DNA of 64,000 nt from Rhizobiaceae bacterium (GTDB lineage: Bacteria; Pseudomonadota; Alphaproteobacteria; Rhizobiales; Rhizobiaceae), in the NCBI GenBank assembly GCA_019635795.1, contig JAHBYV010000010.1, positions 62,001-126,000 on the forward strand. Reading direction: 5' to 3'. A program made the position numbers and the translations under genes. The notes under the pieces are model-generated. The model worked only from the letters and a program-made list of their open reading frames with translations. It was not told the DNA's origin and did not search any database. Positions within the stretch are counted from its first letter, which is position 1, and every line of letters starts with the position of its first letter. This document shows positions 1 through 13,200 of this stretch, one piece after another.

Positions 1-1
1 G

Positions 2-157
2 CTTGTGCTGGAGGTGGCGTTCGAAGGGCTTAACCGTTCGCCTCGCCACAAATCCGGTGTTGCGATGCGTTTCCCGAGAATCTCGCGTCTTCGCTGGGAC
101 AAGCCTGCCGCTGAGGCGGACAGGCTGTCCACACTGACCGCTATGCTGGACAAATAG
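2..157 (+). CDS. ATP-dependent DNA ligase, C-terminal fragment
   Basis: Only the last 51 codons lie in the window. The reading frame enters from the left edge at base 2 and stops at TAG 155-157. The tail contains the pattern RSPRHKSGVAMRFPRI followed by RLRWDKPAAEADRL. From family knowledge this is typical of the C-terminal OB-fold end of bacterial ATP-dependent DNA ligases of the type often called cisplatin damage response ligase. Such enzymes seal nicks during DNA repair and are usually encoded with a ligase-associated helicase and exonuclease; that context would lie outside the window. The gene converges with the next gene, and the two stop codons abut (157/158). The assignment rests on a short stretch, so the exact ligase subfamily is not certain. 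Confidence 0.72.
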   Translation, partial: LVLEVAFEGLNRSPRHKSGVAMRFPRISRLRWDKPAAEADRLSTLTAMLDK

Positions 158-1414
158 CTATTCTGCGACAGATACCTTTATCTCATAGATATCTACCGAT
201 TTTCCTTCATTGTCGAAGTCAGAATTTATGGCAATTGTTCCAGCCGCGCCGGGTTTCTTGTCAGGAATGTTGATTTCAAACAGATAATCCGCACGCCCGA
301 TGCCAACGGCATAGCGCTTTCGCCCGCAATCACCGAGTTCACCGAAATTGCAGGTTACAGACATTTGCGTGTCCTGACCCTCTTGTGCTTTCGCGACAAT
401 GTCGAAGGTCGCGCGCTTGCCGGCGATCTGTTCCAGTACGCCGGGGTTAACGTCGATCAAGACAGCCGCGCCAGAACCGCCGGAGCGCACGCGAACGAAG
501 CTGACGCCTTCGTCTTGCAGCACTTCGGCAGTTGCGTCTGATGGTGCGCTGATTGCGCCGGAGTCGCTGGCATTGAAAACAGGAATCCAGTTTCGATTGG
601 CGTCGGCCTGGCCCGGTGTCACGGGTGCTTCATCTGCACCGGGCTCGTAGTCGTCGTCCTGAACCGGTATCGACGTGATGGTTTCAGATTGCGTTGTGTT
701 TCCCAGAAGGCCGGTCTGCATCGCCCACCAGATTCCGATGGCAAGGATGGAGAACAAGGTTACTGCCACAAACATGGCCGCCATAGGCCGGCGCCTGCGC
801 TCTTTGACATGCACGACCCGCTCAGCCGTCAAACCATCTGCGGCGGATGGAGCGGCGGTCCGTTGCCCGGAGACGGGCATCACAGGATCGATCGAGGGAG
901 CGCTGCGTTCAGTTTCGTAGGTCTGTGGGGAAATTTCCGGAGCAGTGTGTTCGACTTGGTGTGTATGCGGGGTAGCCACGGGCTCGACATACACATTTAC
1001 CGGAACGTTTTCCGGTTCGGGTTCGGGCTCGACATAGGTGGCAACAGGTTCATGCTGAACGATAGGGGGCTCTTCGGCAACCGGCGCGGCCACAACAACG
1101 GGTTCGGGTTGATGCACGACAGTTTGTGATTCGCCTGTGGGAAGCGGCGGCACTTGCGCAAGCAGCGGATCTTCAGCCGGTTTCGGCCTGGGATTGACGA
1201 ATTCCTGCTCTATCTCCACGATCTTGGCCTGCAAAGACTTGCGGCGCTTGATCGCGGCCTCCACCGTAACACCGGGATTGGCTTGCAGAACGCGATCCAG
1301 CGCAGAGAATGCTTGCCTGTACACACGTTCCCGGAAAGCCTGATCGGACGAATCGCCCTTCTCGAACGCGTTACGGATCGCCTTTTCTATGACGTCCAAG
1401 AGCTGATTCCTCAC
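158..1414 (-). CDS. Membrane-anchored protein of unknown function
   Basis: Protein of 418 residues that I cannot assign to a named family. The N-terminal 75 residues are charged and helical. Residues about 75-205 are a low-complexity, Pro/Glu/Val-rich linker of the kind that spans a cell compartment. A basic cluster (KERRRR) precedes one transmembrane helix at about residues 211-235. The C-terminal 140 residues look like a compact beta-rich domain with two cysteines (TCNFGELGDCG) that could form a disulfide. The layout suggests a single-pass inner membrane protein with a cytoplasmic head and a periplasmic C-terminal domain. Proteins of this look are known to me only as conserved hypotheticals of Rhizobiales. 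It converges with the DNA ligase gene with no gap. Confidence 0.75.
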   Translation of the reverse strand: MRNQLLDVIEKAIRNAFEKGDSSDQAFRERVYRQAFSALDRVLQANPGVTVEAAIKRRKSLQAKIVEIEQEFVNPRPKPAEDPLLAQVPPLPTGESQTVVHQPEPVVVAAPVAEEPPIVQHEPVATYVEPEPEPENVPVNVYVEPVATPHTHQVEHTAPEISPQTYETERSAPSIDPVMPVSGQRTAAPSAADGLTAERVVHVKERRRRPMAAMFVAVTLFSILAIGIWWAMQTGLLGNTTQSETITSIPVQDDDYEPGADEAPVTPGQADANRNWIPVFNASDSGAISAPSDATAEVLQDEGVSFVRVRSGGSGAAVLIDVNPGVLEQIAGKRATFDIVAKAQEGQDTQMSVTCNFGELGDCGRKRYAVGIGRADYLFEINIPDKKPGAAGTIAINSDFDNEGKSVDIYEIKVSVAE

Positions 1415-1626
1415 CTTGTGCGTGACTATTCACGTCTGTTTATACGATTCCTACTATACGAAAAATCCGCGAAGGGAAGTCGCAGGCTGGCCAAGCGGCA
1501 TCTTATCAAGGCCGAATAGTATTGGAACAGGGCTGGACAATGTGCATCAACAGCAAATGCGCGTCTTGATATTGATCTAAAATATGTCTATCAGGCTCGC
1601 ATTCCGCAGCCAATTCGCTGGCACGG

Positions 1627-1702
1627 GCCGCTTTAGCTCAGTTGGTAGAGCACATCATTCGTAATGATGGGGTCAGGTGTTCGAGTCACCTAAGCGGCAC
1701 CA
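1627..1702 (+). tRNA. tRNA-Thr (anticodon CGT)
   Basis: A 76-base cloverleaf. The acceptor stem GCCGCTT pairs perfectly with AAGCGGC and is followed by an encoded ACCA end. The D arm is GCTC/GAGC, and the anticodon stem CATCA/TGATG encloses loop TTCGTAA, giving anticodon CGT. The T arm contains TTCGAGT. It stands alone, with about 210 non-coding bases on each side. The genes just downstream (Mrr nuclease and RhuM protein) look accessory, and tRNA 3' ends are common integration sites, but I found no second copy of the tRNA 3' end in the following few kilobases. Confidence 0.96.
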
Positions 1703-1913
1703 GACTTAACATTCCACACGGTTCCTGGTTGTGCGATTGAGCTCTAGCGTCCGCAGGCACTCTGGAAATTCCGCAATTACTGCTACCGGCGGTCATCTAC
1801 AGAATCACTCGGAAGTTAAGATATCAGGCACAGATCGGCCATCGCGGCTTTCCGAATGGGACAACCGTAAGCTACTTTGACTGAATGGAATCATATGGCT
1901 TCAGGCGGGATCA

Positions 1914-3218
1914 ATGAGCGTCACCAAAATCATCGGGTCTGACGAGATTGGGGGAATTAAAGAGGCAGTTTATCGAAGCGGTATTGGCACAAAGATCGTC
2001 CAGGCACCGCTTTATCCGCTCTACTCGGACGTTGCCCATGCGATACGGCTCATGGATGGCGAACCCGTCCAACGTGTTCGCGACTTGATCAGCAACATTG
2101 CCAATCAAATGGGGACGCCGCAAAATCCAGTCGATTGGTCGGATCCGGACACTTGGATTGGGGAACGCCTCTCCGGGGAGTCTGAAACGCTCGCTCGGAA
2201 AATATGGGATGGCAGCGGCAAGACGCTGAATCCGCGTTATCTCAATGGCTGCTATCTTTTCATCAACCCCCTGCACCTCTTGGAAAAGGATGCAGGCGTC
2301 TACCGGATAGGTGAGCGCGGTCGACGCTTCCTCGATAATGACGAAGTACTCTTTCGGGAGCTGGATGTCATCGAAGGGATTCCGAAGCTCCTTTCGTTGG
2401 TTGCCGAACGTTCGCCTTGCAAACGTGGTGACATCCTGCCGGCATGGTCGGATTATCTAAAAGCGGTTTCGCTGTTTTCAACGCCGAAGACCTTTACTGA
2501 CACGCTGCGGAGACGGTTGGTTAGCGTCGCCGAACGTGGGCTGATCACCCGCGAGGGAAATTTCTACGCCATCACCGATGCTGGGCTGCAATGGCTAAAG
2601 GGTTTCAGTGGGAAAGCCGAGTCAACCACTGTCGCAGCGCCTTCCTCAAAACGGACAACCGTCGCCGAAGCAGCTCATGCCCACAACGAGGAGCAGTTGA
2701 CGGCGTTTCGCGAACGCCTCATGCAACTTGATCCAGCGCAATTTGAGCATTTTATCAAAGAACTCCTCGACGCGATGGACTATGAAGACGTTCGCGTCAC
2801 AAAGGTCAGTGGCGACAAGGGTGTCGATGTTGTTGCCCGCGTACAGTTCGGTATTACGGAAATCACAGAAGTTGTTCAGGTTAAGCGGACGGAAAACACC
2901 ATCACTCGACCAAAGGTCGACGAGCTTCGGGGTGCGCTCCCGTATTTCAAAGCCATCCGGGGCACCATCATCAGTCTCGGCAGTTTTGCGAAAGGTGCAC
3001 AAGAAGGTGCGCTGTTTGTCGGCGCGGCTCCGATCACGTTGATCGATGGAAAGCGTCTATTGGACCTTTGCATCAAACATCAGGTGGGTGTGAAACGCCG
3101 CCCCGTGGAAATCTACGAGATAGACGAAGCGTTCTTTGCCGAGAAATTTACCCGGGACGAAGTTGAAGGTGCTGCGCCGGTCACCGGCGATCTCGCGGAG
3201 GAAGGTGCCGATGTCTGA
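1914..3218 (+). CDS. Mrr-type restriction endonuclease (type IV-like)
   Basis: Protein of 434 residues. The N-terminal 230 residues resemble winged-helix DNA-binding segments (for example a helix-rich region ending in RRRLVSVAERGLITREG). A linker follows, then a C-terminal nuclease domain at about 270-390. That domain shows the Mrr_cat pattern of the PD-(D/E)XK fold: Glu278 in FEHF, Asp305 in GDKGVD, and Gln322-Val-Lys324 in VVQVKR. Known Mrr-family proteins cut foreign or modified DNA, so a defence role is inferred. The start ATG fits the frame, but the ribosome site is weak. The gene overlaps the following rhuM-like gene by 8 bases, so the two are almost certainly co-translated. No methyltransferase is nearby, which fits a methylation-dependent or stand-alone nuclease. 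Confidence 0.8.
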   Translation: MSVTKIIGSDEIGGIKEAVYRSGIGTKIVQAPLYPLYSDVAHAIRLMDGEPVQRVRDLISNIANQMGTPQNPVDWSDPDTWIGERLSGESETLARKIWDGSGKTLNPRYLNGCYLFINPLHLLEKDAGVYRIGERGRRFLDNDEVLFRELDVIEGIPKLLSLVAERSPCKRGDILPAWSDYLKAVSLFSTPKTFTDTLRRRLVSVAERGLITREGNFYAITDAGLQWLKGFSGKAESTTVAAPSSKRTTVAEAAHAHNEEQLTAFRERLMQLDPAQFEHFIKELLDAMDYEDVRVTKVSGDKGVDVVARVQFGITEITEVVQVKRTENTITRPKVDELRGALPYFKAIRGTIISLGSFAKGAQEGALFVGAAPITLIDGKRLLDLCIKHQVGVKRRPVEIYEIDEAFFAEKFTRDEVEGAAPVTGDLAEEGADV

Positions 3219-4230
3219 CGATAACCTCATCCTCTACACCACGGAAGACGGCCGCAGCCGGATCGAGTTACGCGCGATTGACGGAACGGCATGGATGACA
3301 CAGGCCCAAATGGCCGAGTTGTTTCAGACGTCTCCACAGGCAATGACCCAACAAATCGGAAGCATTTACGACGAGCAGGAGTTAAGCGAAGAGGCAACTT
3401 GTAAGGAACTCTTACAGGTTCGAACCGAGGGGAATCGCACGGTTTCCCGTTCATTGAAGCATTACAATCTCGATATGATCCTTGCCGTAGGATACCGCGT
3501 TCGGTCGGCGCGCGGAGTCCAGTTCCGCAGATGGGCCACAACGACGCTGACCGAGTACCTGGTCAAAGGCTTCGTGATGGACGACGCCCGGCTAAAGCAG
3601 CCGGGTTATGATCATTTCGACGAGCTGCTTGAACGCATCCGCGACATCAGGGCATCGGAAGCGCGCTTCTATCAAAAGGTACGGGATATCCTGGCGCTGA
3701 GCGAGGACTATGATCCCAACTCAAAATCCGTGAACACGTTCTATGCGACCATCCAGAACAAGATGCTGCACGCGGTCACCGGCCATACTGCTGCCGAGCT
3801 TATCGTCGCCCGCGCCGACGCTACAGCACCGAACATGGGACTAACCTCATGGAAGGGGTCGCGGGTGCGCAAGTGCGATGTCGTGACCGCAAAAAACTAT
3901 CTGGCACAGCCCGAGATTTCGGAACTCAACCTCATCGTCACGATGTTTCTGGACACGGCCGATTTGCGCGCCAGGCGTCGCCAGACCATGCGGTTGGCGG
4001 ACTGGGAAGGTGTCCTCGACAACTTCTTGCGCTCCAACGAGCTGAATGTCTTGAAGAATGCCGGCTCTGTATCGCACAAAAAGGCTGCGGCGGTTGCCGA
4101 GGCCCAATACGAAAGTTTTGACGAGGCTCGCAAAGAAGCCGAGCGCTTGGCAGATGCGAAGATCGACGAGCTGGATGAATTGAAACGTATCGCCGAGGAC
4201 ATGAAGAAAGGTGGACAGGGCAAGGGTTGA
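3211..4230 (+). CDS. RhuM family protein
   Basis: Protein of 339 residues matching the RhuM (virulence RhuM) family. Near the N-terminus is the hallmark WMTQAQMAELFQ followed by an EATCKELLQV segment, then a conserved middle (SLKHYNLDMILAVGYRV) and FRRWATTTLTEYLVKGF. The C-terminal third is helical and charged, rich in Ala/Glu/Lys. The start at 3211 is chosen because GGAGGAAGG lies just upstream and because the upstream 25 codons of the open frame lie inside the mrr-like gene. RhuM was first noted on a Salmonella pathogenicity island. Homologues often sit inside type I restriction operons, but their biochemical role is unknown to me. The 8-base overlap with the Mrr-type nuclease suggests the two act together. 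Confidence 0.82.
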   Translation: MSDDNLILYTTEDGRSRIELRAIDGTAWMTQAQMAELFQTSPQAMTQQIGSIYDEQELSEEATCKELLQVRTEGNRTVSRSLKHYNLDMILAVGYRVRSARGVQFRRWATTTLTEYLVKGFVMDDARLKQPGYDHFDELLERIRDIRASEARFYQKVRDILALSEDYDPNSKSVNTFYATIQNKMLHAVTGHTAAELIVARADATAPNMGLTSWKGSRVRKCDVVTAKNYLAQPEISELNLIVTMFLDTADLRARRRQTMRLADWEGVLDNFLRSNELNVLKNAGSVSHKKAAAVAEAQYESFDEARKEAERLADAKIDELDELKRIAEDMKKGGQGKG

Positions 4231-4378
4231 TCCTGGTTCTATGCCGTGCGTGATTTAGCAGGCAGGGCGGCGCTTGCTTCCGAGCTTTCAGTGTTCATGT
4301 TTAGTTGCCGCGCGCCAGTTGAATGATCTTTGCAATGGCGGGGATGTTTTCACCGAGCGAGGCCGCTGCTTTCCACAT

Positions 4379-4837
4379 TCATTGCGCAGGGACTGAAAAA
4401 AGTTGGCGCGCGCCGCCAGAATATGCGCGCGCCAACCCTTGTTGCACCAGCCAATCATTGATCAGCTCATCATCAATGTAAATTTTGGCGAGATAGCGCC
4501 CGTATTTCTCGCGTTGTTCAGCGCTCGAGTTGTCGTCCCTGATCGTGCAAATGATCACACCCTTACCTAGGATGCGGGATCGAAGCGCGTCGCGTGCGGC
4601 TAATCCCAATTCCCGATCTGGACCTTTCAGTTCCGGCGTATCGATCCCGAAAAGCCGAAGCCGTTCACCGCGGCGCCAAGTGTTAAAACCCAGATCGATG
4701 TCGGCAGTAACAGTGTCGCCGTCATAAACGTCAGTGATTTCGGCGTGGTATTGATAGAGACCGCATGCAGGCGCGGCGTTCGAAACGGACGGTAAAGCCA
4801 GAAATGCGATGAAGGAAACGGCTTGCAGCGTTCGCAT
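4379..4837 (-). CDS. Secreted thermonuclease-like protein (SNase domain)
   Basis: Protein of 152 residues with an N-terminal signal peptide (MRTLQAVSFIAFLALPSVSNA) and a staphylococcal-nuclease domain. The domain is visible from DGDTV and GIDTPE, the metal/phosphate-binding region, and EKYGRYLA near the end of the fold. The family hydrolyses DNA and RNA with calcium; an extracytoplasmic location is inferred from the signal. The ATG at 4837 is preferred over a TTG three bases upstream. The TTG immediately follows the stop codon of the upstream small secreted protein, so the pair is an operon with essentially no gap. A role in nucleotide scavenging or turnover of extracellular DNA is possible but not shown. 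Confidence 0.85.
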   Translation of the reverse strand: MRTLQAVSFIAFLALPSVSNAAPACGLYQYHAEITDVYDGDTVTADIDLGFNTWRRGERLRLFGIDTPELKGPDRELGLAARDALRSRILGKGVIICTIRDDNSSAEQREKYGRYLAKIYIDDELINDWLVQQGLARAYSGGARQLFSVPAQ

Positions 4838-4840
4838 CAA

Positions 4841-5254
4841 TTACCGAGCGACCTCCACATGCACAGAGCGCCCGAATCCGTTGCTGCCCCAGATTTCCAC
4901 GCGAACAAGCACGCCGCCGGAGACGATGTCGCGCGCGGCGGAGCTTGAAATGTATCCACTTGCGAGCATGGCTTCCATCTTTGCGCGGTTCGATCTTGAC
5001 TGGAAGAATGTGTCGCCAGTATCCATGCGGTCAGCGCGTCCGAACTGATGGTAATTGGCGCGGTCCTGACGGATGATCTGCCACGGAGCAGTTAGTCGTA
5101 CGCCGTTCGAATTGACCAGATCCTGCGGGCCAATATAGGCCACATACTCGTCGATAAGGTGATCACGCGGCGGAGCGTTCGTTATGGTGGATTGTGAAGC
5201 AGCGCTGGTTATTGGCCCAACGACCGCAATTAAGGCAATCGCAAACTTCTTCAT
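4841..5254 (-). CDS. Small secreted protein of unknown function
   Basis: Protein of 137 residues with a clear signal peptide (MKKFAIALIAVVGPITSAASQ). I do not recognise a family. The mature part is mixed alpha/beta, without cysteines or an obvious catalytic motif, and ends in a beta-rich stretch (VLVRVEIWGSNGFGRSVHVEVAR). The start at 5254 is chosen over the longer open frame because GGAGGA lies 3 bases upstream and the signal peptide begins there. It is directly followed by the SNase gene, suggesting shared expression and export. Confidence 0.65.
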   Translation of the reverse strand: MKKFAIALIAVVGPITSAASQSTITNAPPRDHLIDEYVAYIGPQDLVNSNGVRLTAPWQIIRQDRANYHQFGRADRMDTGDTFFQSRSNRAKMEAMLASGYISSSAARDIVSGGVLVRVEIWGSNGFGRSVHVEVAR

Positions 5255-5465
5255 GGCTCCTCCGGCAATCTCTAGTTGCAAATCACATAGATGGGTCTGA
5301 CGCAAGTAGAGCCGCAACTATAGGTTCACCGGTAGTTAAAGAGCTGACGAATATAATTGTCTCCGCCTATCCGCGAGGTATGGGTTGAGCTTTCTCGACA
5401 TACTGATATAAGGCGCTGCCTGTTTCCTGCTGAGCAGGTATCATCCACTGGTTGGAGAGGACGCC

Positions 5466-5654
5466 ATGACGAGCGACGCCCTCTTCCAATTGGGGACTGG
5501 TCCAACCGGAGTGGTCAACACCCAAGCGGAAGAACCCTTAAAGTTGCGACCCATCCATTCGCGCATGGGAAATCTCATTGTTGATGCGCGGTTGGCGCGC
5601 ACGCCCGAGCATTTCAGAGGCAATTGCGCCAAAGCGCTTATTTATCTGCGATAG
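5466..5654 (+). CDS. Possible small ORF, SpeD-like remnant
   Basis: A 62-codon frame in the 512-base stretch (5255-5766) between the secreted protein and the decarboxylase. It begins at an ATG preceded by GGAGAGGA at a good distance, so translation is plausible. The N-terminus (DALFQLG) and the later LIVDA segment recall, from memory, the start of alphaproteobacterial S-adenosylmethionine decarboxylases. The frame stops where such a protein would continue for about another 60-100 residues. It could be a truncated remnant, a short leader peptide, or chance. The rest of the stretch shows nothing else I can name. Confidence 0.25.
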   Translation: MTSDALFQLGTGPTGVVNTQAEEPLKLRPIHSRMGNLIVDARLARTPEHFRGNCAKALIYLR

Positions 5655-5766
5655 CCACGCAGCTCACTTTGTGATGGCGCACTGATTGCACCGGCGAGCT
5701 CCTGTCAGGAGGCTCAGGCCGGGCATATCTTCCGCAGTTTATCTCTCTCCAGTTTCAGAGAATCCC

Positions 5767-6879
5767 ATGTCCACACAGTCTGAACCACGAACTCCATTTT
5801 ATCTCATCGACAAGCGTAAGCTGCTCGCCAACATGGCTATAATCGATCGCGTGCGAGAGCTTTCCGGCGCAAAGGCGCTGCTGGCTCTGAAATGCTTCGC
5901 AACATGGTCGGTATTCGATCTGATGCGTGAGCATATGGATGGGACAACTTCTTCCTCGCTCAACGAGGTCAGGTTGGGCCGCCAGCGTTTCGGCGGGGAA
6001 ACACATGCTTACAGCGTGGCGTGGGCCGATCATGAAGTTGATGAAGCGGTGAGCTATGCCGACAAGATCATCTTCAATTCGATCCAGCAGTTGGAACGCT
6101 TCGCAGGCAACGCGTCCGGCATAACGCGCGGATTGCGACTGAACCCGGGCATATCGTCATCTACCTTCGACCTTGCCGATCCGGCACGTCCTTTCAGTCG
6201 GCTGGGCGAATGGGATGCGGACAAAGTGCTGAATGTCATCAATAAGATCACCGGTTTCATGATCCACAATAACTGCGAGAACTCGGATTTTTCGCTGTTC
6301 GACCACATGCTTCACCAGATTGAAGAGCGGTTCGGCGAGTTGTTGACCCGCGTGGAATGGGTCAGCCTTGGTGGCGGTATCCATTTTACCGGCGACAATT
6401 ATCCGCTTGAAGAATTCTGCGCGCGACTGAAGTCGTTCTCCGAAAAATTCGGCGTTCAGGTCTATCTGGAGCCGGGTGAGGCTTCGATCACCCGGTCAAC
6501 GACACTGGAGGTGACGGTGCTTGACACGCTGCATAACGGCAAGGATCTGGCCATCGTCGACTCATCGATCGAAGCGCATATGCTCGACCTTCTAATTTAT
6601 CGCGAGAGTGCGAAGATTGCACCCAATACGGGCGATAACGAGATCATGGTCTGCGGAAAGTCCTGCCTTGCCGGTGATGTATTCGGGACATTCCGTTTTC
6701 CCGAGCCGCTGAAAGTCGGCGACCGAATCTCGATCAATGACGCTGGCGGCTACACCATGGTCAAGAAGAACTGGTTCAATGGCGTTGCGATGCCAGCCAT
6801 CGCCATACGCGAACTGGACGGCTCAATCCGCACTGTTCGCGAGTTTGGCTATTCCGATTACGAGAGCAGCCTTTCCTGA
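5767..6879 (+). CDS. nspC: Carboxynorspermidine decarboxylase
   Basis: Protein of 370 residues, the usual length for this PLP enzyme of the alanine-racemase / group IV decarboxylase fold. Visible features are the PLP-lysine region near the N-terminus (ALLALKCFATWSVF), the GGGIHFTGDNYP loop, EPGEA for phosphate binding, and the C-terminal CGKSCLAGDVFG with the catalytic cysteine and DAGGYTMVKKNWFNG. The enzyme converts carboxyspermidine or carboxynorspermidine into spermidine or norspermidine in the cytoplasm. The ATG at 5767 starts the conserved protein; the longer open frame upstream has no family similarity. It is followed after 37 bases by the matching dehydrogenase, so the pair forms the alternative polyamine operon. 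Confidence 0.93.
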   Translation: MSTQSEPRTPFYLIDKRKLLANMAIIDRVRELSGAKALLALKCFATWSVFDLMREHMDGTTSSSLNEVRLGRQRFGGETHAYSVAWADHEVDEAVSYADKIIFNSIQQLERFAGNASGITRGLRLNPGISSSTFDLADPARPFSRLGEWDADKVLNVINKITGFMIHNNCENSDFSLFDHMLHQIEERFGELLTRVEWVSLGGGIHFTGDNYPLEEFCARLKSFSEKFGVQVYLEPGEASITRSTTLEVTVLDTLHNGKDLAIVDSSIEAHMLDLLIYRESAKIAPNTGDNEIMVCGKSCLAGDVFGTFRFPEPLKVGDRISINDAGGYTMVKKNWFNGVAMPAIAIRELDGSIRTVREFGYSDYESSLS

Positions 6880-6916
6880 AATAAACCTCAACATCACACG
6901 GAGAATTCCTGCTGAA

Positions 6917-8155
6917 ATGAAAAAGAACGTTCTCATCATTGGTGGCGGCGGCGTGGCGCAAGTCGTCGCGCACAAATGCGCACAAAACAACGATCTGCTG
7001 GGTGATATTCATATCGCGTCACGCACAGTTTCGAAGTGCGAGAACATTATTGCGTCCATTCAGGAGAAGAGTGCTCTTAAAGTCGAAGGTAAGCTCGAAG
7101 CTCATGCGCTGGACGCGTTGGAGGTTGATGCCACAGCGAGCCTCATTCGAAAAACTGGTGCGCAAATTGTCATCAACGTTGGCTCGGCCTTCCTGAACAT
7201 GCCAGTCCTTTCGGCATGCATCCAGACAGGGGCCGCCTATATCGACACCGCGATTCATGAAGATCCTTTGAAAATTTGTGAAACACCACCGTGGTATGCC
7301 AATTACGAATGGAAGCGTCGCGAGGAGTGCGAAAAAGCCGGCGTGACTGCAATTCTAGGCGCGGGCTTCGATCCCGGCGTCGTCAATTCATATGCCAAGC
7401 TTGCCATCGATGAGTACTTTGACGAAATAGACTCGATCGACATTATCGATATCAACGCCGGTAAGCATGACCGCTGGTTTGCGACAAACTTCGATCCGGA
7501 GATCAATTTCCGCGAGTTCACCGGCCGCGTTTGGTCCTGGCAGAATGGGGAATGGACCTCAAATGCCATGTTCGAGATCGGCAAGGAATGGGACTTGCCT
7601 ATCGTTGGAAAGCAAAAGGCATATTTGACCGGCCATGATGAAGTGCATTCACTGTCACAGATTCTCGGTGTCAAGAATGTGCGCTTCTGGATGGGGTTCG
7701 GCGACCACTACATCAACGTTTTCACGGTGCTTAAAAATCTCGGCCTGCTTTCCGAGCAGCCTGTGCGCACGGCTGAGGGGCAAGAGGTCGTCCCTCTCAA
7801 GGTGGTGAAGGCAGTTCTTCCCGACCCGAGTTCACTTGCGCCTGCCTATACGGGCAAGACATGTATCGGTGATCTCATCAAGGGCAAATCGAAAGGCAAG
7901 GAACGAGAGATATTCATCTATAACGTTGCCGACCACAAGGAAGCCTTCGAGGAAGTCGGCTCGCAAGGCATCTCTTACACAGCCGGAGTGCCGGCAGTGG
8001 CTGCAGCCTTGCTGATCGCCAACGGCGAGTGGGATGTCAAAAAGATGGCCAACGTTGAACAACTTCCGCCGCGACCATTCCTTGGCTTGCTCAATCGCAT
8101 CGGGCTCCCGACCCGGATTCGCGACGAGCAAGGGGATCGCCCGCTCGATTTCTGA
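6917..8155 (+). CDS. Carboxynorspermidine synthase (saccharopine dehydrogenase-like)
   Basis: Protein of 412 residues starting with a Rossmann nucleotide-binding loop (NVLIIGGGGVAQVVAHKCAQ). It continues with the saccharopine-dehydrogenase-type core, including GAGFDPGVVN and INAGKHDRW. The enzyme joins aspartate semialdehyde and putrescine (or diaminopropane) with NADPH to give carboxyspermidine (carboxynorspermidine), the substrate of the decarboxylase encoded just upstream. The start at 6917 is supported by ACGGAGAA about 10 bases before it and by the Rossmann motif beginning there. The gene ends before a strong hairpin terminator, closing a two-gene operon. In alphaproteobacteria this pathway usually makes spermidine in place of SpeD/SpeE. 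Confidence 0.92.
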   Translation: MKKNVLIIGGGGVAQVVAHKCAQNNDLLGDIHIASRTVSKCENIIASIQEKSALKVEGKLEAHALDALEVDATASLIRKTGAQIVINVGSAFLNMPVLSACIQTGAAYIDTAIHEDPLKICETPPWYANYEWKRREECEKAGVTAILGAGFDPGVVNSYAKLAIDEYFDEIDSIDIIDINAGKHDRWFATNFDPEINFREFTGRVWSWQNGEWTSNAMFEIGKEWDLPIVGKQKAYLTGHDEVHSLSQILGVKNVRFWMGFGDHYINVFTVLKNLGLLSEQPVRTAEGQEVVPLKVVKAVLPDPSSLAPAYTGKTCIGDLIKGKSKGKEREIFIYNVADHKEAFEEVGSQGISYTAGVPAVAAALLIANGEWDVKKMANVEQLPPRPFLGLLNRIGLPTRIRDEQGDRPLDF

Positions 8156-8164
8156 TAGGCAGTG

Positions 8165-8194
8165 CGGCCCCGATTTCGGGGCCGACTTCATTTT
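8165..8194 (+). terminator. Rho-independent terminator of the polyamine operon
   Basis: Perfect 8-base-pair stem CGGCCCCG/CGGGGCCG with loop ATTT, followed by ACTTCATTTT. It lies 9 bases after the dehydrogenase stop codon, between convergent genes. The T-tract is only on the plus-strand side and is slightly interrupted. Confidence 0.75.
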
Positions 8195-8219
8195 GCACGG
8201 TGAGATCGAGAGGTGTGCT

Positions 8220-9110
8220 CTATTGGACGCCGCGCTTGCGGATCAACTTGGCGAATTCCGTTTCAACTGTCGTTGCATAGCGGCTTTCGTGGCGCAGCAT
8301 CATGAAATGGCGCTTCTCTAGCGGATAGTTAAGGGCGACAAGTTTTCCGGCTTCAATACTGCTTTCCACGACACGTCTGGAAAGTACGGCAGCGCCTGCA
8401 CCGGATTCGACAGCCGCGCGCACGGCTTCGTTGGATGGAAGCGTCAGTGCGCCATTCAGCTTGTCCAGATTGATATCCTGCTGGTCGAGCATTGTAGCGA
8501 GCATGGCCCTCGTTCCTGAACCGGGTTCGCGTGTGACCCACTGCGTTGACGAAAAATCAGGGATAGTTCGTTTTCGAAGTTTGGCCCAGGCGTGGTCCGG
8601 TGCAACGACCAGAACCATGTCGTCCTCTGCGACCAGATCAATCTTGAGCGCGGGCTGATCGACCTTGCCCTCCACAAACCCGATATTCGCCTCTCCTTTC
8701 AGAACCAGGGAGGCCACAGCTGCCGTGTTGTCTATGACAAGGCTGACAGAGATTCCGGGATAAAGCGTGTGGAACTGCTTTATTATCTCCGGGAGCCAAT
8801 AGTTCCCTGCGGTTTGGCTGGCAGCCAGGCTAAGGGAACCAACCCTCAGCCCGGCGAGATCTGCCAGCACGAGTTCTGCAGCCTTCGCGCGGGCCATCAC
8901 TGCACGCGCTTCGGGCAGGAACATTCGGCCCGCAGGCGTCAGGGCGATATTTCTGCCCACCCTGTCAAAAAGCTTGGTTGCGTAGCGCGATTCGAGAGCC
9001 GCGATAGCAGCGCTCGCAGCTGATTGGGTGAGATTAAGCTGCCGTGCCGCCCGGGTCATATGCTCGAGTTCGGCAACGGCTATGAAAACGCGCAACTGCT
9101 CAAGCGTCAT
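8220..9110 (-). CDS. LysR family transcriptional regulator
   Basis: Protein of 296 residues, normal for LysR regulators. The N-terminal helix-turn-helix covers residues about 1-60 (MTLEQLRVFIAVAELEHMTR, then LTQSAASAAIAALE). The rest is a periplasmic-binding-like effector domain (about 90-290). It lies 9 bases downstream of the YeiH-family exporter gene on the same strand and is therefore probably co-transcribed with it and regulates it. In enterobacteria the related YeiE regulator is encoded next to yeiH. The effector is not visible from sequence; sulfite or sulfur oxyanions are a guess based on that pairing. Confidence 0.88.
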   Translation of the reverse strand: MTLEQLRVFIAVAELEHMTRAARQLNLTQSAASAAIAALESRYATKLFDRVGRNIALTPAGRMFLPEARAVMARAKAAELVLADLAGLRVGSLSLAASQTAGNYWLPEIIKQFHTLYPGISVSLVIDNTAAVASLVLKGEANIGFVEGKVDQPALKIDLVAEDDMVLVVAPDHAWAKLRKRTIPDFSSTQWVTREPGSGTRAMLATMLDQQDINLDKLNGALTLPSNEAVRAAVESGAGAAVLSRRVVESSIEAGKLVALNYPLEKRHFMMLRHESRYATTVETEFAKLIRKRGVQ

Positions 9111-9119
9111 GCAGCTTCC

Positions 9120-10139
9120 TTACGCGAAGAGTTTGATCAGCGTGAGTGAAGAGGAAGCGATAAACAGAAACGAAAAAAGAGCAAGCAACAAAGGACGCAT
9201 GCCCTCTTTGCGCAGGGCCGCAATATTGGTCTGTAGTCCCAGTGCCGCAAGTCCGGTGCTGAGCAGGGCGGTTGTTGTGAGCGCGAGCGCCTGCCGCACT
9301 TCTGCAGGTATCGTAATGAGGCTGTTCAACACGACGACAGCCAGAAACCAGAGGGCGAACCACGGAATGGTTGCCTTGGCGCCGGATTGCGCACCGGCCT
9401 GCCTGCTGATGAAGAAGCCTAGGGCGAGAACCACAGGCGCGAGCATAACCACGCGGGTGAGCTTGGACACTGTGCCAATCTCACCAGAAACTTGGCCGTT
9501 CTGGAACGCAGCGCCGACAACCTGTGCGACTTCGTGAATGGATGCCCCCGCCCATATACCGAAATCATGATCCGAGAGGCCGAACACAGGTGCCAGAAAC
9601 GGCAGGCCGAGCATGGCAATCGTACCGAAAAGGGTGATGCTTGCGACGGAGTACGCCACGTGTTCTTCACGTGCGCGCACAACGGCATTTGTGGCAACGA
9701 TTGCCGAGGCCCCGCATATTGAAGTTCCGGCAGCGATAAGACAGGCAAGATTTTTCTCTACCCCCAGCGCACGTCCCAGGAGCATGGTCAGCACGAAGGT
9801 GAGAATGAGAACTGTAGCGATTATTGCGATTCCCGACGCCCCGATCGTTGAGACCTGGGTCAATGTCAGCTGGAAACCCAAAAGCACGATTGCAAATCGC
9901 AGCAAGCTCTTTTGGCAGAAAGTAATGCCGGGCTTTGCGTGGTCGGGCATACCCACGATATTGGCATAGAGTATTCCGATTGCCACCGCGATTATCATGG
10001 GGCTGAGGACTGCCAGTCCGGGCAATTGACGCAGCTGATAGGCTGCAACAGCAGTCAGCCCGGCAATCATTATGCCGGGCAGCAGGGAACTGCCGAAAGG
10101 CTTGTGAAGAATTTGAGTTTGGGAGGATGCAATCGACAT
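9120..10139 (-). CDS. YeiH family putative sulfate/sulfite exporter
   Basis: Integral membrane protein of 339 residues with about ten hydrophobic helices, matching the UPF0324/YeiH family in length and in its features: [20 protein letters not shown] near the middle of the N-half, the [13 protein letters not shown] loop and the [13 protein letters not shown] loop. Some members have been described as sulfate or sulfite exporters in taurine or cysteate degradation; the substrate here is inferred. The start is the first ATG, although its ribosome site is poor. It is followed after 9 bases by the LysR gene. The promoter is probably in the 140-base gap after the RND operon. Confidence 0.85.
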
Positions 10140-10240
10140 TTTTTCGTTCTGGGAATGATTTTCCCGCGCTCATGCCACTGCGGAGAATTCAATTCCAACA
10201 GAACTTTTTTGTGTGATTGATCGATTTCGGCGATGAAAGC

Positions 10241-10268
10241 ACGTGCGGCGATCCCAGCCGCCGCACGT
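10241..10268 (-). terminator. Hairpin after the RND efflux operon
   Basis: Perfect 10-base-pair stem ACGTGCGGCG/CGCCGCACGT around an 8-base loop, 12 bases past the RND pump stop codon. Only a short TTT follows on the minus strand, so it may be a weak or factor-dependent terminator. Confidence 0.55.
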
Positions 10269-10279
10269 CGCCCAACTCG

Positions 10280-13200
10280 CTAGACTCTGCTTTCGCCCTT
10301 CAACACCACATAAATTGCGGGAATTACCAGCACAGTCAGCAGCGTTGAAGAAGCAAGTCCGAACAGCAGCGAGATCGCCAGCCCTTGAAAGATCGGGTCG
10401 GCAAGGATGACCGCGGCGCCGATCATCGCGGCAACTGCGGTCAGCAAAATAGGTTTGAAGCGGATAGCCCCAGCGTCCAGCAGGACCTCCCTCAATGATC
10501 TATCGGAACCCTTGGCATGGCGGATAAAGTCTGCGAGCAGGATGGAGTTGCGCACGATAATGCCAGCCAATGCTATGAATCCGATCATTGATGTAGCTGA
10601 AAAAGGCGCGCCAAACATCCAGTGGCCCAACATGATGCCGATAAAGGTCAGCGGTATGGGTGTCAGGATCACCAGCGGCAGCTTGAACGAGCCGAACTGC
10701 GCAACAACCAGAATGTAAATTCCCAGCAGTGCAACCATGAATGCTGCACCCATGTCGCGGAACGTCACCCATGTGACTTCCCATTCGCCATCCCATAGAA
10801 GCGTCGGATGGGATTCATCGTCGGGCTGGCCGTGAAGGGAAATCACAGGTTTTGGCAGGCTGCCCCAATCCGTGTTGTCGATTGCATCCCTGACAGCAAG
10901 CATGCCGTAGATTGGCGCTTCATACTCGCCCGCAAGTTCTGCGAGAACCATTTCGGCATCGCGCCCATTGTGCCGGAAAACCGGATATGAGGTGGGTTCG
11001 CGGTTGACCGAAACGACATCACCAAGCTCAACCACATCGCGTCCGCCGGGCAGGGCATTTGCTGGCACGGGCGTGGCCAATGCCTGTTCGCCAATCGTCG
11101 TCCGACCTTTGGAAAGTGCCAGAGTAATGGGAATGGGTTGTCGGCCATCACCACGATGCGAATATCCGACCGTGGTTCCGCCATACAAATAACCGAGCGT
11201 GTCATAAACGTCCGATTGCTCGACGCGATAGTATTCCAGATTGTCCTGGTTGATTGACACGCGCACCCGTTCAGTCTGCGTGTGGAAGCTGTCATCCACA
11301 TCGACAATGTAAGGAACGCTCTGGAATATCTCGCGCAACTTGCTGGCAACCGCCCGCCGCGTCTCGGCGTCGGGGCCGTAAATCTCTGCAAGCAGGGTTC
11401 CCACTACAGGTGGGCCGGGCGGCGGCTCTACCACTTTGAGTACAGTGCCTTTCGGCAGGTCGAGCCCATTTATCAGGTTCCGCAGTTCAAGAGCGATCGT
11501 GTGACTGGCGCGTGAACGCTCGCTCTTGGGTACGAGATTGACGACAACCTGACCCTGTTCGGGATTTGCGCGCAGATAATAGTGGCGAACAAGGCCGTTA
11601 AAATCGAACGGCGCGCCTGTTCCGGCATAGGTCTGGAACGATTCAATTTCCGGTACGGCTGCCAGTTTGTTAGCAATTGACTGCAAGGTGCGATCGGTGT
11701 CTTCGACGCTTGAGCCGGTCGGCAGATCAACCACGACCTGCAGGTCTGATTTGTTGTCGAAGGGCAGAAGTTTCACGGTCACGTGCCCGCTGTAGATCAG
11801 CCCGAGCGAAGCAATTGTAGCAATCCCGACGGCTATCAGGAACGACCATGCTCGTTTGCGGCTGGCCAGAATTGGTTTTGCGACCGACACGTAAAGACGG
11901 CCCAGTCTGCCACCCCCTGCGTCGTCGTGACCGCCGTCATGTCCGGCCGTGGAATTCCTGCTCATCTTGAGCATCAGCCAGGGGGTCAACATGACCGCCA
12001 CAAAGAACGAAAACACCATCGCCGCTGAAGCATTGACCGGGATGGGGCTCATATACGGACCCATCATTCCCGAAACGAAAAGCATTGGCAGCAGTGCTGC
12101 AACAACAGTAAGCGTTGCCACGATGGTCGGGTTTCCGACTTCGGCCACCGCATCGATTGCGGCCGTGGCCCGGCTTCGCCCATCGCGCATTGCCCAGTGT
12201 CGCGCAATGTTCTCGATAACGACGATCGCATCATCCACGAGGATACCAATTGAGAATATCAACGCAAACAGCGAAACGCGGTTGAGCGTGTAACCCATCA
12301 TCCATGAGGCAAACAGGGTCAGCAGGATCGTGGTCGGAATAACAACCGCCACAACCACCGCCTCGCGCCAGCCGATGGCGAGAGCTACGAGGATAACGAT
12401 CGACACCGTCGCAATGCCCAGATGCAGCAGGAGTTCGTTTGCCTTTTCGTTGGCGGTCTCTCCATAGTTGCGGGTCACGGTCATTTCGACATCATCGGGG
12501 AAGGTCTGACCGCGTATCTGCTCCAGGCGCTGTGTGATTTCCTCGGCAATTGTGACGGCGTTTGTGCCAGCGCGCTTCGCAATCGCGAGAGAAACGGCAG
12601 GTGCGCGGTCAAGGCTCTCACCGTCCCGGCGAATGTCGGTCACCCGGCTTTCCCGAGGAGAGGTTTCCAGCACAATATTCGCTACGTCGCGCACGTAAAC
12701 CGACCTGCCATCTCGCGCGGTCAGCAAGAGATTGCCAATTTCCGACAGTGTTTGCAGGGTTTGACCCGCAACGATAGGGCGCTGGCCACCTTCGTCGCGG
12801 ATCGTCCCAACGCGAAACGAGCGGTTTGCTCCGCCAAGTTTGGCGGCAAGCTGCTGAAGTGTTATCCCATAAAGCGATAGCTTCTCCGAATCCGGCTCGA
12901 CGCGGAACTGTTCAGGCTGCTCGCCGACAATGTAGGTCAGGCCGATATCCGGCAGCTTTGAAACCTCGACCTGAAGCTCGCGGGCAAGGCGCGTGAGGTC
13001 GTTGGCCCTCCAGCGCGCGGACGCCTCGGGGGTAGGGCGCAGCGTGACGACGACGATTGCCACATCATCAATGCCGCGACCGACGATAAGGGGTTCGTTG
13101 ATGCCAACGGGTATGCGGTCCATATTGGCGCGCACTTTTTCGTGCACACGAAGAATGGCAGCGTCAGAGCTTGTGCCTACTTCGAACCTTGCAGTTACCA

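Follow-up and report, generated by a model that had tools for sequence, protein, structure and literature searches.

A 64,000-nucleotide stretch of contig JAHBYV010000010.1 from a Rhizobiaceae bacterium (assembly GCA_019635795.1; hereafter the window) carries, behind a tRNA-Thr gene, a gene for a Mrr-type PD-(D/E)XK nuclease that overlaps the start of a gene for a RhuM protein (Table 1). This pair had been put forward in a first-pass annotation as a compact two-gene defense system. The locus is probably better described as an eroded restriction island that has kept a working nuclease of the Mrr/MspJI type together with a RhuM derived from a type I restriction-modification operon, and the overlap between the two genes looks inherited from an hsdM-rhuM junction. 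An overlapping gene pair in a defense island can thus be the scar of a deletion rather than a new module.

Origin of the overlap

Type I operons that include RhuM have the order hsdM-rhuM-hsdS-hsdR. In nine of the ten loci holding HsdM (L069, L071, L073, L090-L094, and L096), RhuM starts on the hsdM stop with the same eight nucleotides, ATGTCTGA, that join the nuclease and RhuM genes in the window; the tenth, L072, is a type I locus with a different hsdM-rhuM junction. The RhuMs of such operons (L069 and L092, for example) also fall in the same clade as that of the window, which pairs in the RhuM tree with the RhuM of Brucella oryzae (locus L002; support 100/100) within an 11-row clade (100/98) containing seven type I and two viral RhuMs. 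As the first-pass annotation had described, RhuM begins inside the last codons of the nuclease gene and has its own ribosome site (GGAGG, 3197–3201); in type I operons, the GGAG ribosome site likewise lies inside the end of hsdM.

Unlike these operons, the locus has no hsdM (save a possible tail), hsdS, or hsdR. Searches with reference proteins over window positions 1–9000 gave no relatives of HsdM, HsdS, HsdR, the type III proteins Mod and Res, or BREX proteins at E <0.01, in line with the earlier statement that methylase, specificity subunit, and helicase are absent. The genome as a whole (30 contigs, 99.28% complete), in which a single RhuM was found, lacks a convincing HsdM: there were two matches to PF02384, both partial, one with E 4.5e-5 (23.5 bits against a cut-off of 20.4) over 67 of 311 positions and the other, below the cut-off, with E 6.7e-4. 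The searches for HsdS and HsdR covered window positions 1–9000.

A trace of the missing hsdM may precede RhuM. A consensus of the hsdM tail was derived from eight reference loci, in which hsdM ends in Y/H-L-K/R-E-L-G-V-D/N-V, and was compared with the 22 bases in front of RhuM: 16 match in L002, in which no HsdM match was found, and 19 in L070, both strong likenesses, and 13 in the window, a weak one. Among the 3,113 ATG sites of the window, L002, and L070, the score of L002 is reached by two, that of L070 by one, and that of the window by nine, the sites themselves included. For the 576 ATGnnTGA sites that remain in the loci read once 22 RhuM starts are removed, the corresponding counts are 0, 0, and 4. 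RhuM loci without hsdM upstream (L003, L076, L089, and L095) score only 3–7 on the hsdM tail, and L072 scores 6. The homology of the nuclease with its L002 counterpart ends at about position 3191, close to where the hsdM-like tail starts. As for L070, its RhuM gene (9331–10350) is solitary, 19 kb of sequence giving no match to reference restriction genes, and is preceded by a remnant matching the hsdM tail at 19 of 22 bases; it would be a second case of a RhuM outliving its type I operon.

The other side of RhuM is informative as well. The 36 bases behind it are 24/36 identical between the window and L002, the best of 42,322 positions in L002, whereas the best match to this segment near ten other RhuM ends is 14–17/36. 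Because the two copies share this segment, which is not hsdS, RhuM was probably without hsdS before they split. Taken together with the place of RhuM in the tree, the conservation of the overlap, and the remnant of an hsdM tail in the nearest relative, these comparisons suggest that RhuM descends from an hsdM-rhuM-hsdS-hsdR operon; that hsdS, as judged from the shared flank, and probably hsdM too were lost before the copies of the window and B. oryzae separated; and that a deletion in the window would then have brought the last codons of the nuclease gene against the start of RhuM.

Both proteins have apparently been kept under selection without their type I partners. Compared with B. oryzae over 397 codons, the nuclease has a ratio of nonsynonymous to synonymous substitution rates (dN/dS) of 0.083; for RhuM, over 339 codons, the ratio is 0.080. 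The dS values are 0.94 and 0.81, respectively. Given ratios of 0.08 and the shared loss of hsdS, the two proteins seem to be still useful, and each probably still works alone. The suggested persistence of RhuM under selection without HsdM, HsdS, and HsdR means that it probably functions in its own right. Since the nuclease (81.7%) and RhuM (84.4%) are closer in DNA identity to B. oryzae than metH (76%), both genes have probably spread horizontally.

Table 1. Features of the nuclease-RhuM locus (window positions; residue numbers refer to the nuclease)
Feature	Position	Strand	Basis or remark
tRNA-Thr (anticodon CGT)	1627–1702	+	ARAGORN; probable attachment site of defense islands in related genomes
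Mrr-type PD-(D/E)XK nuclease gene, PADLOC PDC-S02 family	1914–3218	+	intact open reading frame, 434 amino acids
First winged-helix domain (residues 37–140)	2022–2333	+	predicted structure
Second winged-helix domain (residues 144–229)	2343–2600	+	predicted structure
Mrr catalytic domain (residues 270–386) with E278, D305, Q322-x-K324	2721–3071	+	PF04471
Possible hsdM 3'-end remnant	3192–3218	+	hsdM-tail match at 13/22 bases ahead of the ATG; includes the RhuM ribosome site
Stop/start overlap ATGTCTGA	3211–3218	+	8 nucleotides common to nuclease end and RhuM start; identical to the hsdM-rhuM overlap
RhuM gene, PADLOC PDC-S05 family	3211–4230	+	intact; ATG at 3211, stop at 4230, 339 amino acids
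Segment behind RhuM common to window and B. oryzae	4231–4266	+	unlike the ends of other RhuM genes

The two proteins and their possible roles

Both families are already catalogued in PADLOC as single-gene candidates, the nuclease as PDC-S02 and RhuM as PDC-S05. PDCs are putative systems that were identified through "guilt by embedding" and entered the catalogue with PADLOC-DB 2.0.0 (PMC10855318); for most PDCs of the core set, validation is pending (PMC12988326).

The nuclease is complete, as first annotated: PF04471 (Mrr_cat) matches with E 1.2e-26 (93.5 bits against a curated cut-off of 21), and its four catalytic residues do not vary across a 7-row alignment of relatives. The winged-helix-like N-terminal region that had been proposed proved, in the predicted structure, to be double. 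The mean predicted local distance difference test score (pLDDT) of the model is 68.8, with both ends <50. E. coli-like Mrr is not matched at its N-terminal domain, Mrr_N (PF14338) remaining below its cut-off in the nuclease (13.2 against 29.5 bits) although winged helices are predicted. PDLC04796, the profile of PDC-S02, covers residues 27–414 on profile positions 4–385 of 390 (E 2.5e-170), and is thus matched over nearly its whole length; the nuclease differs in its first 27 and last approximately 10 residues, which are absent from its nearest relative, homology with that relative running from residue 28 to about residue 425 only. Residues 1–27 (window 1914–1994) are thus not found there, residues 1–26 have very low model confidence, and the 5' end of the gene may be a junction as well. 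PHROGs gave a match to a family without known function (E 1.8e-11). In viral contigs, seven stretches matched the search pattern of the nuclease, of which none was confirmed. Unlike the modification-dependent endonucleases MspJI and AspBHI, which recognize DNA through a different type of domain, the window nuclease has two winged helices. To judge by its fold and family, the protein most likely acts unaided as a type IV-like enzyme, cleaving foreign DNA that is probably modified.

RhuM matches PF13310 (Virulence_RhuM) with E 1.3e-109 (365.8 bits against a cut-off of 33.7) and PDLC04852, the profile of PDC-S05, with E 1.4e-149, the latter along nearly its whole length. In the window it lies outside a type I or type III operon, in a genome without convincing HsdM. 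PHROGs contained nothing for RhuM; for either protein, NCBIfam yielded nothing over cut-off and solved structures no convincing sequence link. The N-terminal domain of the RhuM model is predicted to be winged-helix-like, and the best fold match of the model, at modest confidence, is DdrC of Deinococcus radiodurans, a DNA-binding repair protein. RhuM is longer than DdrC and tied to restriction operons, and no sequence likeness between them was detected.

As a best guess, RhuM would bind DNA in an accessory role, at places where it has been cut or damaged. A more specific proposal, tentative and somewhat doubtful, is that it is a DdrC-like binder of DNA ends or breaks that protects or traps DNA cut by the accompanying restriction enzymes. 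RhuM was seen between hsdM and hsdS, between mod and res, as a solitary gene, and on viral contigs. Generalized, and in a form that is unlikely to hold, RhuM would be a widespread break-binder on restriction-made ends, either shielding accidental breaks in host DNA or trapping the ends of phage DNA, and the window copy, having outlived its type I partners, would now serve the Mrr/MspJI-type nuclease under continued selection. The likeness to DdrC at least offers a specific and cheap test for a family whose function is unclear.

That RhuM is instead a protein-modifying toxin forming a second layer behind the nuclease, as proposed in PMC3710099, appears unlikely. The available part of that paper reports RhuM-like domains fused to DOC and adjoining PrrC-like proteins in restriction loci, and RhuM is listed among toxins in what is accessible of PMC12629846. 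In the window RhuM, however, no Fic/DOC domain was matched in Pfam up to E 1, nor any other enzyme domain, and both the predicted N-terminal domain and the top fold match point to DNA binding. Two viral contigs (L089 and L095) hold near-identical RhuMs of the window's clade without hsd matches, and phages may therefore carry RhuM too.

Recurrence of the pair and restriction context

The nuclease has few relatives: with the window's own genome included in every count, they occur in 2/297 genomes of the family at E 1e-20 and, at E 1e-40, in 2/397 of the order, 2/385 of the class, and 4/398 of the phylum. A scan of genome contigs for the nuclease gave 10 loci, and the protein was covered to at least 80% in three plasmid records and one record of the phage collection. 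Thirteen nuclease loci, those with most of the protein, were analyzed. They include two with interrupted nuclease frames (L115 and L008) and L116, which is 33% identical and lies on a 5.8-kb contig. The neighbor count omits L007 and L128 (partial gene near a contig edge), L009-L011 (partial protein match), H3 (twin of H2), and L013 and L036 (same place as L005). The RhuM loci read, in stretches of 2.5–19.5 kb, numbered 43. They comprise every distinct place, 25 in total, at which a search of 347 genomes of the order gave a match at E 1e-40, and 18 viral contigs, among which L089/L095, L097/L098, L101/L103, and L105/L106 are near-twins.

In 9/13 nuclease loci, tblastn with the reference set found genes of type I, type III, or BREX systems, a tenth, L040, has an annotated DNA methyltransferase and helicase, and in L039, L113, and L114 the nuclease family lies directly 5' of an hsdM-type gene. 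Similarly, HsdM is present in 10/43 RhuM loci and type III Mod in 2/43, which supports the tie of RhuM to restriction operons (12/43) stated in the first-pass annotation. In an E. coli plasmid record (L039, 13986–21485) and a Salmonella houtenae record (L041, 13986–20969), the nuclease family is flanked by yjiA and symE and has hsd-type genes next to it, a locus that resembles the known immigration control region.

The adjacency of nuclease and RhuM, which had been expected to be conserved if the pair were a system, does not recur. None of the 13 other nuclease loci has RhuM directly adjoining; in two of them, L002 and L003 (a Beijerinckiaceae metagenome-assembled genome), RhuM lies within the stretch read. 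No Mrr was found at E 1e-3 within the stretch read in any of the 43 RhuM loci. A true two-gene defense module, with the nuclease as effector, RhuM as its partner or regulator, and translational coupling through the overlap, is thus decidedly unlikely, and we reject it because the pair does not recur in the loci read and because hsdM ancestry can explain the overlap. In its favor, both genes are intact, the eight nucleotides overlap, the two genes are under like purifying selection and share one locus in B. oryzae too, with similar dS, and they stand together in the type III locus of L003. In B. oryzae, however, approximately 2 kb with a DUF7380 gene separates them, and the overlap is the one that RhuM has with hsdM, so that a role of RhuM as dedicated partner of this nuclease is not supported. 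Among the matches listed in the literature for RhuM with defense or restriction, no test of a RhuM-Mrr pair was found, and the accessible text of PMC12255303 and PMC11514479 names neither RhuM nor Mrr. It is highly improbable that both genes are functionless, dead leftovers. Such a reading would fit the window in that it yielded no integrase, no second copy of the attachment site, and, within positions 1–9000, no restriction partner, and in that the genome yielded no convincing HsdM; against it stand intact frames, retained catalytic residues, and a dN/dS of 0.08.

Several observations weigh against an eroded island with an inherited junction. The likeness of the window to the hsdM tail (13/22) is weak and consists in part of the ribosome site GGAG, and the four other ATGnnTGA sites that reach it come down to two rhuM-hsdS junctions, one in L069 and one in L071, each represented twice. 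The type I RhuMs of L071, L072, and L073 branch outside the window's clade. None of the loci read holds an intact nuclease-hsdM-rhuM-hsdS-hsdR operon, so we infer this ancestral order. The pairwise dN/dS averages the whole time since the split and may include time spent inside a complete operon. The window contains neither an integrase match at E <0.01 nor a second copy of the tRNA-Thr 3' end. Finally, nuclease and RhuM share one locus in the window, in B. oryzae, and in L003, so some association exists.

The tRNA-Thr site and neighboring features

The tRNA gene next to the pair had been taken to suggest acquisition, and comparison with other genomes agrees: insertion of the locus at tRNA-Thr(CGT) is well supported as the probable route. 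In Oceaniradius (genome G173, L005/L036), a tRNA-Thr(CGT) 98.7% identical to that of the window is followed by an integrase, hsdR-hsdS-hsdM, the nuclease, and then a 46-base stretch resembling the 3' part of the tRNA (82.6% identical to the window's tRNA, its first 18 bases exact); this span of approximately 14 kb would be one integrated element. In L003, an integrase adjoins tRNA-Thr(CGT), and the nuclease, RhuM, and type III genes lie in the same 21-kb locus, in which no repeat of the tRNA 3' end was found, only an 18-base match to its 5' part at 3095–3112. Two congeners of the window genome keep the gene before tRNA-Thr; the window's downstream genes are absent from the approximately 8 kb behind it, and parts of them are located elsewhere.

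The B. oryzae locus carries a tyrosine-integrase match (L002, 2791–3315) that shares 47% identity with the integrase found at tRNA-Thr in Oceaniradius. A putative serine-recombinase remnant behind its RhuM was rejected, no tblastn match being obtained at E 1e-3. In the B. oryzae record, metH (L112) and several island genes (L002) are split into short frames, and the assembly may hold many indel errors. The suggestion that mod, res, and DUF7380 genes had decayed there beside whole nuclease and RhuM genes was dropped, metH being in short frames too.

The nuclease gene of the window begins 211 bases after the tRNA. Within 1600–4500, scans gave four promoter-like sites (1.6 expected), all of which lie outside 1703–1913, and two terminator-like sites (3.3 expected). 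Behind RhuM, positions 4379–4840 hold a nuclease-like gene, of the staphylococcal-nuclease type by eye; a congener has a counterpart of this stretch, at 80% identity, on another contig, which indicates that the region has been rearranged.
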